Of a DNA stretch of 32,182 nt, positions 10,352-14,885 are shown piece after piece. The stretch covers positions 1 through 32,182 of the forward strand of contig JADGOM010000117.1 of NCBI GenBank assembly GCA_017882925.1, read 5' to 3'. The DNA is from Acidimicrobiia bacterium (GTDB lineage Bacteria > Actinomycetota > Acidimicrobiia > IMCC26256 > Chersky-534). Under the pieces are notes generated by a model. It was not told the DNA's origin and did not search any database. It saw nothing but the letters and a program-made list of their open reading frames with translations. The position numbers and the translations under genes were made by a program. How positions within the stretch are numbered: the first letter of the stretch is position 1; each line of letters begins with the position of its first letter.

Positions 10352-11626
10352 CTAGCTGGTGGCGCCCAACCACCCGAGCAGGGTCTGGGCGACGACGGTG
10401 ATCGCGAGCGCGGCCACGACCGTGACGCTGATCGTCGCGACCATCCGGAAGCGCGGGCTGTTGACGGCGTCGCCGAGCACCGAGCGGCGGTTCGCGAGCA
10501 CGAGGATGAAGCCCAGGATCACGGGCGTGATGATCCCGTTGAGGATCTGCATGTTGAGGAGCAGCCGGAACAGGTTGCCCGGGACCAACGCGACCGACGC
10601 CCCGACGAGGATCTGCGCGGAGAACAGCCCGAGGAACAGCGGCGCCTCGGAGAAGCGGCGCGACACCGAGCGCTCCGCGCCCACCGCCTCCGCGATGCCG
10701 TAGGCCGTCGAGAGCGGGACGACGGCGCCCGCGAGCGCCGACGCGCCGAGGAGGCCGACCGCGAACAGCGCCTCGGCCGCGTTGCCCGCGACCGGCCGCA
10801 GCGCCTTGGCCGCCGACGCCGCCGACGAGAGCACGCCGTGGCCGCCGATGGCGGCCGCGGTCGCGATGATGATGCACATGCTGATGAGGTTGGCGAAGAT
10901 CGCGCCGCCCACCGCGTCGACCCGCTCGGCCGGGTACTGCTCCGGGCCGATGCCGCGGTCGGCGACGGCCGCGGCCTGGTACAGCTGCATGTAGGGCGTG
11001 ATCGTCGTGCCGACGAGCGCGACCGCGACGAGCAGGAAGTCGTGGCTCCACGAGAAGTGCGGCCAGATGGCGTTGAGCCCGACCTGGCCCCAGTCGGGGT
11101 TCCCGAGGATCAGCGCGAGCGGGTACGCGAGGAAGGCGAGCGACAGGAGGAGGAACAGCCGCTCGGCGTAGCGGTACGAGCCGAAGGCCACCAGCGACCA
11201 GATGCCGATCGCGGCCAGCGGCACCGACACGTAGCGCGAGATCCCGAAGAGCTCGAGCGCGGCGCCGATGCCCGCGAACTCCGACACCACCAGCCCGAGG
11301 TTCGCGACCACCAGGCAGGCGATCGCGAACGTCGTCAGCCGCAGCGAGAACTGCTCGCGGATGAGCGACATCAGCCCTTCGCCAGTGTACGCGCCGAGCC
11401 GGGCCGACATCTCCTGCACCACGACCAGCGCGACGGTGATGAGCGTCATCAGGAACAGGGTCCGGTAGACCCAGGCCGAGCCGGCCGACGCGTACGTCGC
11501 GATGCCACCGGCGTCGTTGCCCGCGTTCGCGGCGATCAGCCCCGGCCCGAGGATGGCGAGGACCCCGAGCGGCCGGCGCCGCAGCCAGACCAGCGCGGCG
11601 CCGGTGCGCTCGCGCGCCGCGCTCAT
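10352..11626 (-). CDS. Nramp (SLC11) family divalent-metal transporter, divergent
   Basis: 'LAILGPGLIAANAGNDAGGIATYASAGS', 'FLMTLITVALVVVQEMSARLGAYTGEGLMSLIRE', 'ALVGTTITPYMQLYQ'; ATGA overlap with the upstream gene. Confidence 0.9.
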   Translation of the reverse strand: MSAARERTGAALVWLRRRPLGVLAILGPGLIAANAGNDAGGIATYASAGSAWVYRTLFLMTLITVALVVVQEMSARLGAYTGEGLMSLIREQFSLRLTTFAIACLVVANLGLVVSEFAGIGAALELFGISRYVSVPLAAIGIWSLVAFGSYRYAERLFLLLSLAFLAYPLALILGNPDWGQVGLNAIWPHFSWSHDFLLVAVALVGTTITPYMQLYQAAAVADRGIGPEQYPAERVDAVGGAIFANLISMCIIIATAAAIGGHGVLSSAASAAKALRPVAGNAAEALFAVGLLGASALAGAVVPLSTAYGIAEAVGAERSVSRRFSEAPLFLGLFSAQILVGASVALVPGNLFRLLLNMQILNGIITPVILGFILVLANRRSVLGDAVNSPRFRMVATISVTVVAALAITVVAQTLLGWLGATS

Positions 11627-12963
11627 GTCCGGAGCCCCGTCCGGGTGAACCGGCGCGGCTCGGCCAGCGCGTCGACGAGGTCGTCGGCGAGGATGCGCCC
11701 GACCGGCGCGCCGTGGCTGTCGACGACGAGGAGCGACGACCCCCGCGACTCGATGAACGCCTCGACCACGACCTCGAGGTCGGCGTCGGGGGCCACCGTC
11801 ACCGGCGCCGGCGCGGCCACGAAGGCGCCGAGCGGGCGGGTCGGCTCGGCGAGGAACAGCTCGAACACGCTGACGTCGTCGAGCATGCGGCCCGCGTCGT
11901 CGACCACGATCACCGCGTCGACGTCGGCGCGGTGCTCGTCGTCGGCGCGCAGCTGCTCGCGCACCTGCTCGACGACCGCGTCCGCCTTCACCAGCACGAG
12001 GTGGCTGGTCATGAGCCCGCCCGCGGTGCCGGCGGGGTAGCGGAGCAGGCGCCGGAGCCGGGTCGAGGCGTCGACGGGCATCGCCGCCAGGAGCCGCGTG
12101 CGGTCGTGCTCGTCGAGGTCGCGCAGGGCGTCGGCAGCCTCGTCGGGCTCCATCCCGGCCAGCAGCGCGGCGCCACGCGCGGGTGTCGACTCCCGGAGCA
12201 GGACCGCGAGCTCGTCGGCGTCCATCTCCTCGAGCGCGTCGGCCGCGGCCGCTGGCTCCAGCGAGTCGAGGAGCTCCTGGCGCTCGGTGCGGCCGAGCTC
12301 TTCGAGCAGGTCGGCGAGCTCGCCCGGCCGGAGCCGGTGCAGGGCCTGGTTGGGCCGCCGCATCCGCACCAGCCCGTCGGCCGTCCCGAACGGCTGGATC
12401 GACGCCCAGTCGATGACCCGGTCGGGGCGGGGCCGGGCCCGCATCCACGCGGGACCGAGCCGGCGCAGGAGGGTCTGGAACCCGACGTCCACGCCCACGA
12501 GGCGCAGGGCGCCGAGCGCACGCGCGAGGTAGAGGTCGGCGGCGCGGACGACGCGGACGCCCTCCACGTCGATGAGCTGGTGGTCGACCACGTCGGCTGT
12601 GAGCGCGACCTCACCCGGGCGGCGCACGAAGTCGCGGAGGTCGAGCCGGGCCGAGCGCAGCTCGACGCGACGCGCGGCGAGGCTCGCGATGAGGTCGGCC
12701 GGGACGAAGATCGCCCGGCGCCCGACCTTCACCACGAGGCCGGTCACCGGCGGGTAGGAGGCTCCCTCCCAGCGGGCGACGACGTCGACGACGCGGCCGA
12801 CCTCGAGGCCGACCGAGTTGTGCACCGGCGCGCCGACGAGCCCGGCCATCGAGATGATGGATTCGGCCACGGCGCGCTGGGCCAGCAGACGGCGGGAGCG
12901 CTGTCCGCGGAGTTGGCGCAGGGGCGTGGCCGGGTGGAGACGGGAGAAGGCGCGAGGAGCCAT
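11623..12963 (-). CDS. PRC-barrel / MgtE N-terminal / CBS-domain protein
   Basis: N-terminal PRC-like 'GAPVHNSVGLEVGRVVDVVARWEGASYPPVTGLVVK'; MgtE_N-like 'LHRLRPGELADLLEELGRTERQELLDSLEPAAAADALEEM'; CBS pair; no MgtE membrane domain. Confidence 0.87.
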   Translation of the reverse strand: MAPRAFSRLHPATPLRQLRGQRSRRLLAQRAVAESIISMAGLVGAPVHNSVGLEVGRVVDVVARWEGASYPPVTGLVVKVGRRAIFVPADLIASLAARRVELRSARLDLRDFVRRPGEVALTADVVDHQLIDVEGVRVVRAADLYLARALGALRLVGVDVGFQTLLRRLGPAWMRARPRPDRVIDWASIQPFGTADGLVRMRRPNQALHRLRPGELADLLEELGRTERQELLDSLEPAAAADALEEMDADELAVLLRESTPARGAALLAGMEPDEAADALRDLDEHDRTRLLAAMPVDASTRLRRLLRYPAGTAGGLMTSHLVLVKADAVVEQVREQLRADDEHRADVDAVIVVDDAGRMLDDVSVFELFLAEPTRPLGAFVAAPAPVTVAPDADLEVVVEAFIESRGSSLLVVDSHGAPVGRILADDLVDALAEPRRFTRTGLRT

Positions 12964-12966
12964 GGG

Positions 12967-12989
12967 GACCTCTTCAAGGAACGGAGGTC
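12967..12989 (-). promoter_or_regulatory. Hairpin sequestering the RBS of the MgtE_N/CBS gene
   Basis: Minus strand GACCTC-CGTTCCTTGAA-GAGGTC-ccccATG region: 6-bp perfect stem whose 3' arm carries the GAGG Shine-Dalgarno 5 nt before the start codon. Confidence 0.5.
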
Positions 12990-13026
12990 GCGCCGGAGGC
13001 GGTGTGCACGCGTGGAGCGGGGCGCG

Positions 13027-13086
13027 CTACAGCGAGGAGGCGCGATGCGATGGCAGCCGCTGACTGGGGGGATCGTCCGTACGCAT
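13027..13086 (-). CDS. Putative 19-aa leader peptide MRTDDPPSQRLPSHRASSL upstream of the MgtE_N/Nramp operon
   Basis: ATG at 13086 preceded by AGGAGGTGA (8 nt between AGGAGG and ATG); TAG stop; lies in the 5' leader of the transport operon. Confidence 0.55.
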   Translation of the reverse strand: MRTDDPPSQRLPSHRASSL

Positions 13087-13142
13087 GCGCCTCACCTCCT
13101 CGTGGGCTCGTTCGGGTCGGTCGCGGTGCCGCCCGGCAGACG

Positions 13143-13224: not shown

Positions 13225-13500
13225 TCAGTTCGTGGAGCCCGGCGGCGGTTCGATCGGGCTGGCCGGCGGGGCGGTCGCTGCCGTGGGCTCGGTGGCCGGC
13301 GTCGGTGGCACCTCGACCTGGGTCTTGGCGGCCGGGGCCGGCTCGACGTCGTCCTTGGCGCCCTCGTCGAGTCCCTTCTTGAACTCGTGCTGGGCGCGGC
13401 CGACGGACCGGGCGAGCTTCGGGATCTGCGATCCGCCGAAGAGCAGGGCGATGACGGCGATGAGGATCAGGATGTCCGGACCGATGATCTCGGCGAGCAT
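13225..13500 (-). CDS. tatA: Sec-independent protein translocase TatA-family protein
   Basis: 'MLAEIIGPDILILIAVIALLFGGSQIPKLARSVGRAQHEFKKGLDEG', canonical TatA TM plus amphipathic helix. Confidence 0.9.
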   Translation of the reverse strand: MLAEIIGPDILILIAVIALLFGGSQIPKLARSVGRAQHEFKKGLDEGAKDDVEPAPAAKTQVEVPPTPATEPTAATAPPASPIEPPPGSTN

Positions 13501-13619
13501 GGTCACTCCCTCGGGTCGGGGCCGCGGCCGGGGGGCGACCGGCGGCGCAACGCCCCATGATCCCACGGTGGGAGCCGGGATCACGATCGAGGGTTGGTCC
13601 GGCCGGTAGCTTGCGGGCC

Positions 13620-14885
13620 ATGCTCGCCCTGGCCCTCGCGGCGGAAGCCGCCTCGGTGCGCGACTTCTCGTTCAACGGTGCGCTCTGGGTCGCCGGGATC
13701 GCGCTCGTGGCGCCGATCCTGGTGAACCTGGCCCCCCAGCTGCGGATGCCGGCCGTGGTCCTGGAGATCGGCTTCGGGATCCTCGTGGGCCCGGCGGTCC
13801 TCGACTGGGTCCACGTCGACGTGACCCTCGACGTGCTCGGGCTCCTGGGCCTCGCGTTCCTCCTCTTCATCGCGGGCCTCGAGATCGATCCGTCCCGCTT
13901 GCGGGGTCGGATCGGAAGGCTCAGCGGCGCATTCGGGGTGTCGCTCGTGCTTGCCGCAGGCCTCGCCTATCTGCTCAACGAGATCGAGCCGCTCCGCGAC
14001 CCGTTGTTCGTCGCGATCGTGTTCGCGTCCACGTCGTTGGGCCTCGTCGTCCCGGTGCTGAGCGACGCGGGGGAGAACGCGACCATGTTCGGGCAGGTGG
14101 TCCTGGCCGCGAGCTCGCTCGCCGAGTTCGGGACGATCCTGCTGATCTCGCTGTTCTTCTCCCAACGCGCGTCGACCACGGGCTCGCAGGTGGTGCTCCT
14201 CGTGGCGTTCGTCGGGCTCGTGGCCATCGTCGCCTTCGGCATGATGCGGGCCGACGAGTCACCGCGCGTCGCGCGGACGCTCGTCGATCTCGAGGACACG
14301 TCGGCCCAGCTCGGGGTGCGCATCGCGATCAGCCTGTTGCTGCTCTTCACCGCAATGGCGACCGGTCTCGGATTCGAGGCCATCCTCGGCGCGTTCGTCG
14401 CCGGCGCACTGCTCCGGGTGGTCGATCGGCACGAGTACCTGATCCACGCCGGGTTCCGCCGGAAGATCCAGGCGATCGGCTACGGCTTCCTCATCCCGGT
14501 GTTCTTCGTCACGAGTGGCATGAACGTCGACATGAAGTCGCTGTTCGACCAGCCGCGCCACCTGATCCTCGTCCCGCTCTTCCTGTTGGCGCTCCTGTTG
14601 GTCCGTGGGTTGCCGGCGTTCTTCTACTCGACGTTCTTCGACCGGCGGCACCAGGTCGCGGCGGGTCTCCTCCAGGCGACGTCGCTGACGTTCGTCGTGA
14701 TCGCGGGCCGGCTCGGCGTCGAGCTCGCGGTGTTCGATGCCGCCACCGGCGCCGCGCTGGTCTGTGCCGGGCTGCTCTCGGTGATCCTGTTCCCGGCGTT
14801 CGCGCTGCGGATCCTCGGCGACTCGCAGGCGGTCACGATCGGCAACGAAGCGGATGGGGACCCCGACCCGGACGTGATCCGCTGA
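13620..14885 (+). CDS. Cation:proton antiporter (CPA2 / KefB-like membrane domain)
   Basis: 'RMPAVVLEIGFGILVGPAVLDWV', 'LDVLGLLGLAFLLFIAGLEID', 'FASTSLGLVVPVLSDAGE'. Confidence 0.9.
   Translation: MLALALAAEAASVRDFSFNGALWVAGIALVAPILVNLAPQLRMPAVVLEIGFGILVGPAVLDWVHVDVTLDVLGLLGLAFLLFIAGLEIDPSRLRGRIGRLSGAFGVSLVLAAGLAYLLNEIEPLRDPLFVAIVFASTSLGLVVPVLSDAGENATMFGQVVLAASSLAEFGTILLISLFFSQRASTTGSQVVLLVAFVGLVAIVAFGMMRADESPRVARTLVDLEDTSAQLGVRIAISLLLLFTAMATGLGFEAILGAFVAGALLRVVDRHEYLIHAGFRRKIQAIGYGFLIPVFFVTSGMNVDMKSLFDQPRHLILVPLFLLALLLVRGLPAFFYSTFFDRRHQVAAGLLQATSLTFVVIAGRLGVELAVFDAATGAALVCAGLLSVILFPAFALRILGDSQAVTIGNEADGDPDPDVIR

Follow-up and report, generated by a model that had tools for sequence, protein, structure and literature searches.

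A candidate Mg2+-linked leader peptide with a conserved CCY-CCN-AGU core upstream of NRMT-type transporter genes in Acidimicrobiia

The M-box (ykoK) riboswitch (RF00380) precedes Mg2+ transport genes, and in ermC-type attenuators the position of the ribosome on a leader ORF decides between 1:2 and 2:3 pairing. In the enterobacterial leader mgtL, conserved early CC[C/U] proline codons are decoded slowly at low Mg2+ because TrmD needs Mg2+ for the m1G37 methylation of tRNA-Pro (PMC6335274). EF-P also matters in mgtL control (PMC6460261), and the early acidic residues of the peptide destabilise the ribosome (PMC11282234). The second described system, the mgtQ uORF in the mgtC-mgtB intergenic region of Salmonella, overlaps a switch between 1:2/3:4 and 2:3 pairing before a Mg2+ transporter gene (PMC8092293). 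Here, we suggest that a short ORF found upstream of NRMT-type loci in the class Acidimicrobiia is probably a translated leader peptide which acts as a Mg2+-linked translational attenuator of Mg2+ uptake genes and is not homologous to MgtL or MgtQ. A literature search, which missed most subscription journals, revealed no earlier report of this leader.

The window, that is, the whole analysed stretch of 32,182 nucleotides, contains on its minus strand a gene for an MgtE_N and CBS domain protein of 446 aa (11623-12963; Pfam PF03448, PF00571). The end of this gene is overlapped by a gene for a 424-aa Nramp-related Mg2+ transporter of the NRMT type (10352-11626, minus strand; PF01566). The 19-codon uORF with a Shine-Dalgarno sequence that was described in the initial annotation is indeed present at 13086-13027 on the same strand. 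It encodes MRTDDPPSQRLPSHRASSL and lies 63 nt before the MgtE_N-CBS gene. The ribosome site CGAGGAGGTGAGGCGC is located directly 5' of the uORF start, and the string AGGAGGTGA is found upstream of the uORF. The core motif GAT CCC CCC AGT (Asp-Pro-Pro-Ser) occupies positions 13063-13074 (minus strand) and has the class-wide form CCY-CCN-AGT. The uORF shares its reading frame with mgtE_N, and one TAG separates them (13086-12963, minus strand); given this single in-frame TAG, a gene caller could run the mgtE_N 5' end through the uORF. Since the congener G001 has a different uORF-gene spacing and its frames do not match, the uORF does not belong to the 5' end of mgtE_N, and a mis-called gene start was ruled out by the differing frames in relatives. 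A search of the window for terminator-like sites gave none. Upstream of the leader lies a TatA/B-type gene (13225-13584, minus strand), the called 5' end of which is overlapped by a divergent Na+/H+ exchanger gene (13557-14885, plus strand).

The closest solved relative of the window Nramp protein was 7qia (E=5e-91, versus 2.5e-15 for MntH). We take 7qia to be the EleNRMT of PMC8806188. The metal-site signature of NRMT proteins is DxxG-TxxA/T (PMC8806188), and the window protein, which reads DAGG/TTIT, carries it. A second Nramp type of the class (NRMT2), which is encoded without an MgtE_N gene, also had 7qia as its closest solved relative (5.5e-48); its metal site reads DAGA/TTVA, so that DxxG is missing and the kinship to EleNRMT is kept. 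Judging from these sequence comparisons, both leader-associated Nramps, which resemble EleNRMT far more closely than MntH, group with the Mg2+ transporters (NRMT) and not with the Mn2+ transporter MntH.

Protein searches revealed MgtE_N orthologues in 33 of 296 genomes of the class. The leaders were counted among 29 orthologues having at least 47% identity and readable upstream sequence. Of these 29 close MgtE_N-CBS/Nramp operons, 27 are preceded by a short ORF that has a strong ribosome site and carries x-Pro-Pro-Ser near its start. One of the 27 leaders reads Asp-Ala-Pro-Ser. The two close orthologues without a leader are those of G004 and G015. In G023, the leader sits on a separate contig (L061), the end of which matches the start of the contig with the gene. 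The NRMT gene that follows the leader-bearing MgtE_N gene at G239:C46:11788-13041 (minus strand) has one in-frame TAG, reflecting either a pseudogene or a sequencing error. In addition, a divergent MgtE_N type (35-41% identical) adjoins the second NRMT type at G159:C90, G188:C37, G243:C55 and G103:C132, being on the opposite strand to it in G159; no leader was detectable at these four loci.

In the class sample, the second Nramp type is represented by 34 genes, at least 20 of which are preceded by the same x-Pro-Pro-Ser core. Five of these leaders have the usual form (MKLEPPSTW..., MKSDPPSTW..., MRQPPSTW..., MSQPPSTR... and MRSEPPSTG...). Another 15 belong to family f32, where a G-rich ribosome site is followed by CTG-AAA-CCY-CCN-AGT-ACC, to be read as (M)KPPST; this count consists of 13 leaders, including one that has an additional ATG codon, together with those of G135 and G182. 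The string NTGAARCCYCCNAGTAC, typical of f32, occurred at 12 sites in 198 genomes of the class, 11 of which were at NRMT2 leaders. Genome G216 holds both Mg2+ transport loci, each with its own leader. The f32 leaders L097, L103-L107, L111, L115 and L126-L129 show an apparently conserved CTG start in the form CTG-AAA-CCC-CCN-AGT-ACC. The CTG start that f32 leaders would need is a rare start codon, which counts against the translated-leader reading. A supposed second leader type before f32 NRMT2 genes, ending in V[LQ]RGxF and a stop codon, was rejected, as it overlaps the CTG-AAA-CCC-CCN-AGT-ACC start. Two possibly degenerate leaders before NRMT2, L094 (G278, MEPPDTDSYL...) and L112 (G069, MRTEPSSPRRS...), were left out of the counts. 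Outside the class, two scans covering 398 genomes of the phylum gave nothing convincing: the relaxed pattern produced four outside matches in the phylum scan versus about nine with a reversed control. The outside match L220 was judged a stray from its sequence.

The class-wide pattern search made no demand that the motif be in frame with a start codon. All examined matches associated with MgtE_N or NRMT genes were nevertheless in frame, and several unrelated matches were out of frame. The leaders start with ATG, GTG or TTG, the distance from start to motif shifts by whole codons, and the x-Pro-Pro-Ser core ends by the eighth or ninth codon. A codon-neutral scan, in which any Pro codon and any Ser codon were accepted, recovered 43 leaders. 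In all 43 the first Pro codon is CCC or CCT and the Ser codon is AGT, while the second Pro codon is free (CCG, CCA, CCT or CCC) and varies at its third base only. Just two further matches were obtained, both lacking CCY as well as AGT. In the downstream genes, AGT makes up 5.1% of the Ser codons and CCY about 48% of the Pro codons; elsewhere in the uORFs, AGT accounts for 5 of 116 Ser codons. The leader of G239 has GCC at the place of the first CCY. Pro-Pro is preceded by D, E, Q or K. Outside the core, the peptide is not conserved, its C-terminal half included. These counts point to a constraint at the codon level, at the start of the reading frame. Because the residue before Pro-Pro may be any of the four, the acidic residue of "DDPP" is not what matters most; the initial annotation had built its sensor idea on DDPP and the basic residues after it, together with the position upstream of Mg/Mn-type transport genes, and what proved invariant is P-P-S, encoded by CCY-CCN-AGT. 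In the complete leader-bearing genome G016, tRNA-Pro occurs with the anticodons GGG, TGG and CGG, and there is one tRNA-Ser(GCT). Based on these anticodons, CCY would select tRNA-Pro(GGG), and AGU would be read by wobble.

The codon data bear directly on an MgtL-type intrinsic destabilisation of the ribosome, in which an N-terminal D or E next to Pro would cause drop-off at low Mg2+. An acidic residue does precede Pro-Pro in most of 35 leaders, and both mgtL (PMC11282234) and mgtQ (PMC8092293) make use of acidic residues. However, Q replaces the acidic residue in G202, G288, G282 and G188 and K replaces it in 13 f32 species, and the fixed CCY and AGT are left unexplained while the acid codons vary freely. 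We consider this explanation unlikely.

At the RNA level, pairing is possible between segment 1, the uORF Shine-Dalgarno sequence CGAGGAGGTG (13093-13102, minus strand), and segment 2, which lies in the distal uORF (13033-13045, minus strand). Within segment 2, CGCCTCCTCG (13042-13033) pairs with segment 1, and TCGCGCC (13045-13039), which overlaps this string, is the partner of segment 3. Segment 3, GGCGCGA (12988-12994, minus strand), lies in the spacer and offers segment 2 an alternative pairing. The strings CGAGGAGG/CCTCCTCG and GAGGCGC/GCGCCTC, for which pairing had been proposed in the initial annotation, are found in the window as described there, and so are GACCTC (12989-12984), GAGGTC (12972-12967) and ACCTCC (12988-12983), the last of these suggested as another partner of the uORF ribosome site. 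A small hairpin of GACCTC and GAGGTC lies over the ribosome site of mgtE_N (12967-12989, minus strand). This 3:4 helix was better than shuffles in the window (p=0.042) and in G001 (p=0.030) and not significant across lineages (p=0.15); the proposed sequestration of the transporter Shine-Dalgarno sequence is thus seen in these two sequences and lacks support as a general feature of the families.

In the window alone, the 1:2 helix gave a shuffle p of 0.043, the 2:3 pairing was no better than shuffles (p=0.83) and the whole leader folded at z=-1.4. Taken by itself, the window is only mildly unusual, barely above chance, and the leader was judged real because of the comparative evidence from relatives and not because of window statistics. 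For the families, duplex energies were compared with dinucleotide shuffles using one sequence per lineage, with lineages treated as independent. Under this treatment, both the 1:2 pairing (p=2e-6) and the 2:3 pairing (p=9e-7) exceeded the shuffles. In family f28, the 1:2 register was 87% paired versus 45-69% when slid; it shows little covariation on both sides, as the ribosome site hardly changes. In the 2:3 helices of f28, both paired strands change in step, as in GCCACCUCC/GGAGGUGGC and CAUCUCU/AGAGAUG. In f32, 2:3 alone was supported (p=1e-5), and a weak CTG start appears in place of a masked ribosome site. Consequently, mutually exclusive 1:2 and 2:3 helices can overlap the uORF, as in mgtQ and ermC-type leaders, with just 2:3 in f32. 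In the 1:2 hairpin, the Pro-Pro-Ser motif is part of the loop. It has no pairing partner above shuffles (p=0.97 and 1.0), and its role as half of a helix or pseudoknot was rejected for this reason.

The position of the leader before Mg2+ transport genes is shared with the M-box, which the initial annotation had named as an alternative. No covariance-model match to RF00380 at the gathering score was obtained in any leader tested. A search with all Rfam models likewise yielded none that fits the leaders, M-box being absent even among matches up to E=10. The string AGGTGAGGC, said to resemble the M-box core, is the Shine-Dalgarno stretch, and the resemblance is confined to this ribosome site. M-box or other riboswitch identity was rejected on the basis of these searches. 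A more general form of the idea is an RNA aptamer with CCYCCNAGU as its conserved loop and the uORF as an incidental feature. It would account for the invariance of AGT at the nucleotide level and for the hairpin-loop location of the motif. Nevertheless, it is quite unlikely, given the lack of an Rfam match and of a pairing partner for the motif, the restriction of changes in the second Pro codon to the third base, the whole-codon spacing between start and motif, and the maintenance of ATG, GTG or TTG starts with a strong ribosome site.

Classical amino-acid attenuation, where the Pro and Ser codons would sense the charging of tRNA-Pro or tRNA-Ser, draws on the two Pro codons, on a Ser codon seldom used in these genomes and on the response of the Salmonella mgtA leader to Pro-tRNA levels (PMC6460261); we regard it as highly improbable, as there are just two Pro codons and the downstream genes are those of Mg2+ transporters and not amino-acid genes. 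A programmed +1 slip at CCY-C fusing the leader to the downstream gene is hardly credible: although CC[C/U]-[C/U] tends to shift when m1G37 is lacking (PMC6335274) and the +1 frame of G001 runs into mgtE_N, the downstream gene stands in frame 0, 1 or 2 with no fixed choice and the +1 products share neither length nor end, so productive +1 or -1 recoding was rejected.

Based on the above results, the best reading is that the leader would work like MgtL and MgtQ and belongs to neither of them by sequence. The relatives lend support to three proposals of the initial annotation: that a leader peptide precedes transport genes of the Mg2+ type, that the uORF has alternative pairings and that the system is analogous to MgtL. 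Comparison among genomes establishes the uORF, its codons, its context before two independent kinds of NRMT-type locus and the potential for 1:2 and 2:3 pairing. We infer Mg2+ as the signal, the direction of the response, the level of the output and translation itself, the last from the Shine-Dalgarno sequence, the frame and the codon-level conservation. With MgtL, which precedes mgtA, the leader shares a short ORF before a Mg2+ importer gene, early CC[C/U] Pro codons (43/43) and alternative folds. However, a homologous peptide with alternating acidic and Pro residues (EPDP) is missing: MgtL reads MEPDPTP... and the present leaders M-x(0-4)-[DEQK]-PPS, the similarity being limited to short Pro-rich motifs. 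Further differences are the invariant AGU, which is not known in MgtL, the dispensable acid, the gene class (a P-type ATPase there, MgtE_N/NRMT here) and the host class. With MgtQ, the common feature is a uORF overlapping a 1:2/2:3 switch before a Mg2+ transporter gene (PMC8092293). However, MgtQ needs its acidic residues and can do without its Pro codon; in addition, its 3:4 helix covers the mgtB ribosome site, and the counterpart here is weakly supported. The choice between 1:2 and 2:3 by ribosome position is common to ermC-type attenuators, whose inducer is an antibiotic, whereas Mg2+ or the translation state is proposed here.

We suggest the following course of events for the leader as an attenuator. 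At low Mg2+, the ribosome would slow down or fall off at CCY-CCN-AGU early in the chain. Possible contributors are Mg2+-dependent m1G37 methylation of tRNA-Pro, Pro-Pro bond formation, for which EF-P is needed, and, where an acidic residue is present, intrinsic ribosome destabilisation. A ribosome halted at CCY-CCN-AGU would sit between segments 1 and 2 and leave segment 2 free for segment 3, and a ribosome reaching the stop codon would cover segment 2. The choice between the 1:2 and 2:3 folds would then set the expression of the transporter operon. Following mgtL and mgtQ, we assume that low Mg2+ leads to high expression. The m1G37 model accounts for CCY only, and the invariant AGU is explained by neither the mgtL nor the mgtQ models. 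More tentatively, and with some doubt, we consider that this may be a Mg2+-sensing leader peptide with an origin separate from that of MgtL, in which the sensor is the fixed CCY-CCN-AGU read by m1G37-dependent tRNA-Pro(GGG) and wobble-pairing tRNA-Ser, and the acid is unneeded. If so, Mg2+ would be sensed via tRNA methylation and decoding speed and not by a riboswitch.

The papers found document the control of Mg2+ import by leader peptides in enterobacteria. The leader described here would be the second such case, apparently an independent one, from a deep actinobacterial class and pared down to a nearly invariant codon string. It would part the ribosome-sensed codons and tRNA-Pro from the acidic and Pro residues that are confounded in mgtL, and the m1G37/TrmD model of Mg2+ sensing would become testable in a minimal natural sequence. 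Furthermore, the leader provides a marker by which Mg2+ importers can be recognised in uncultured Acidimicrobiia.
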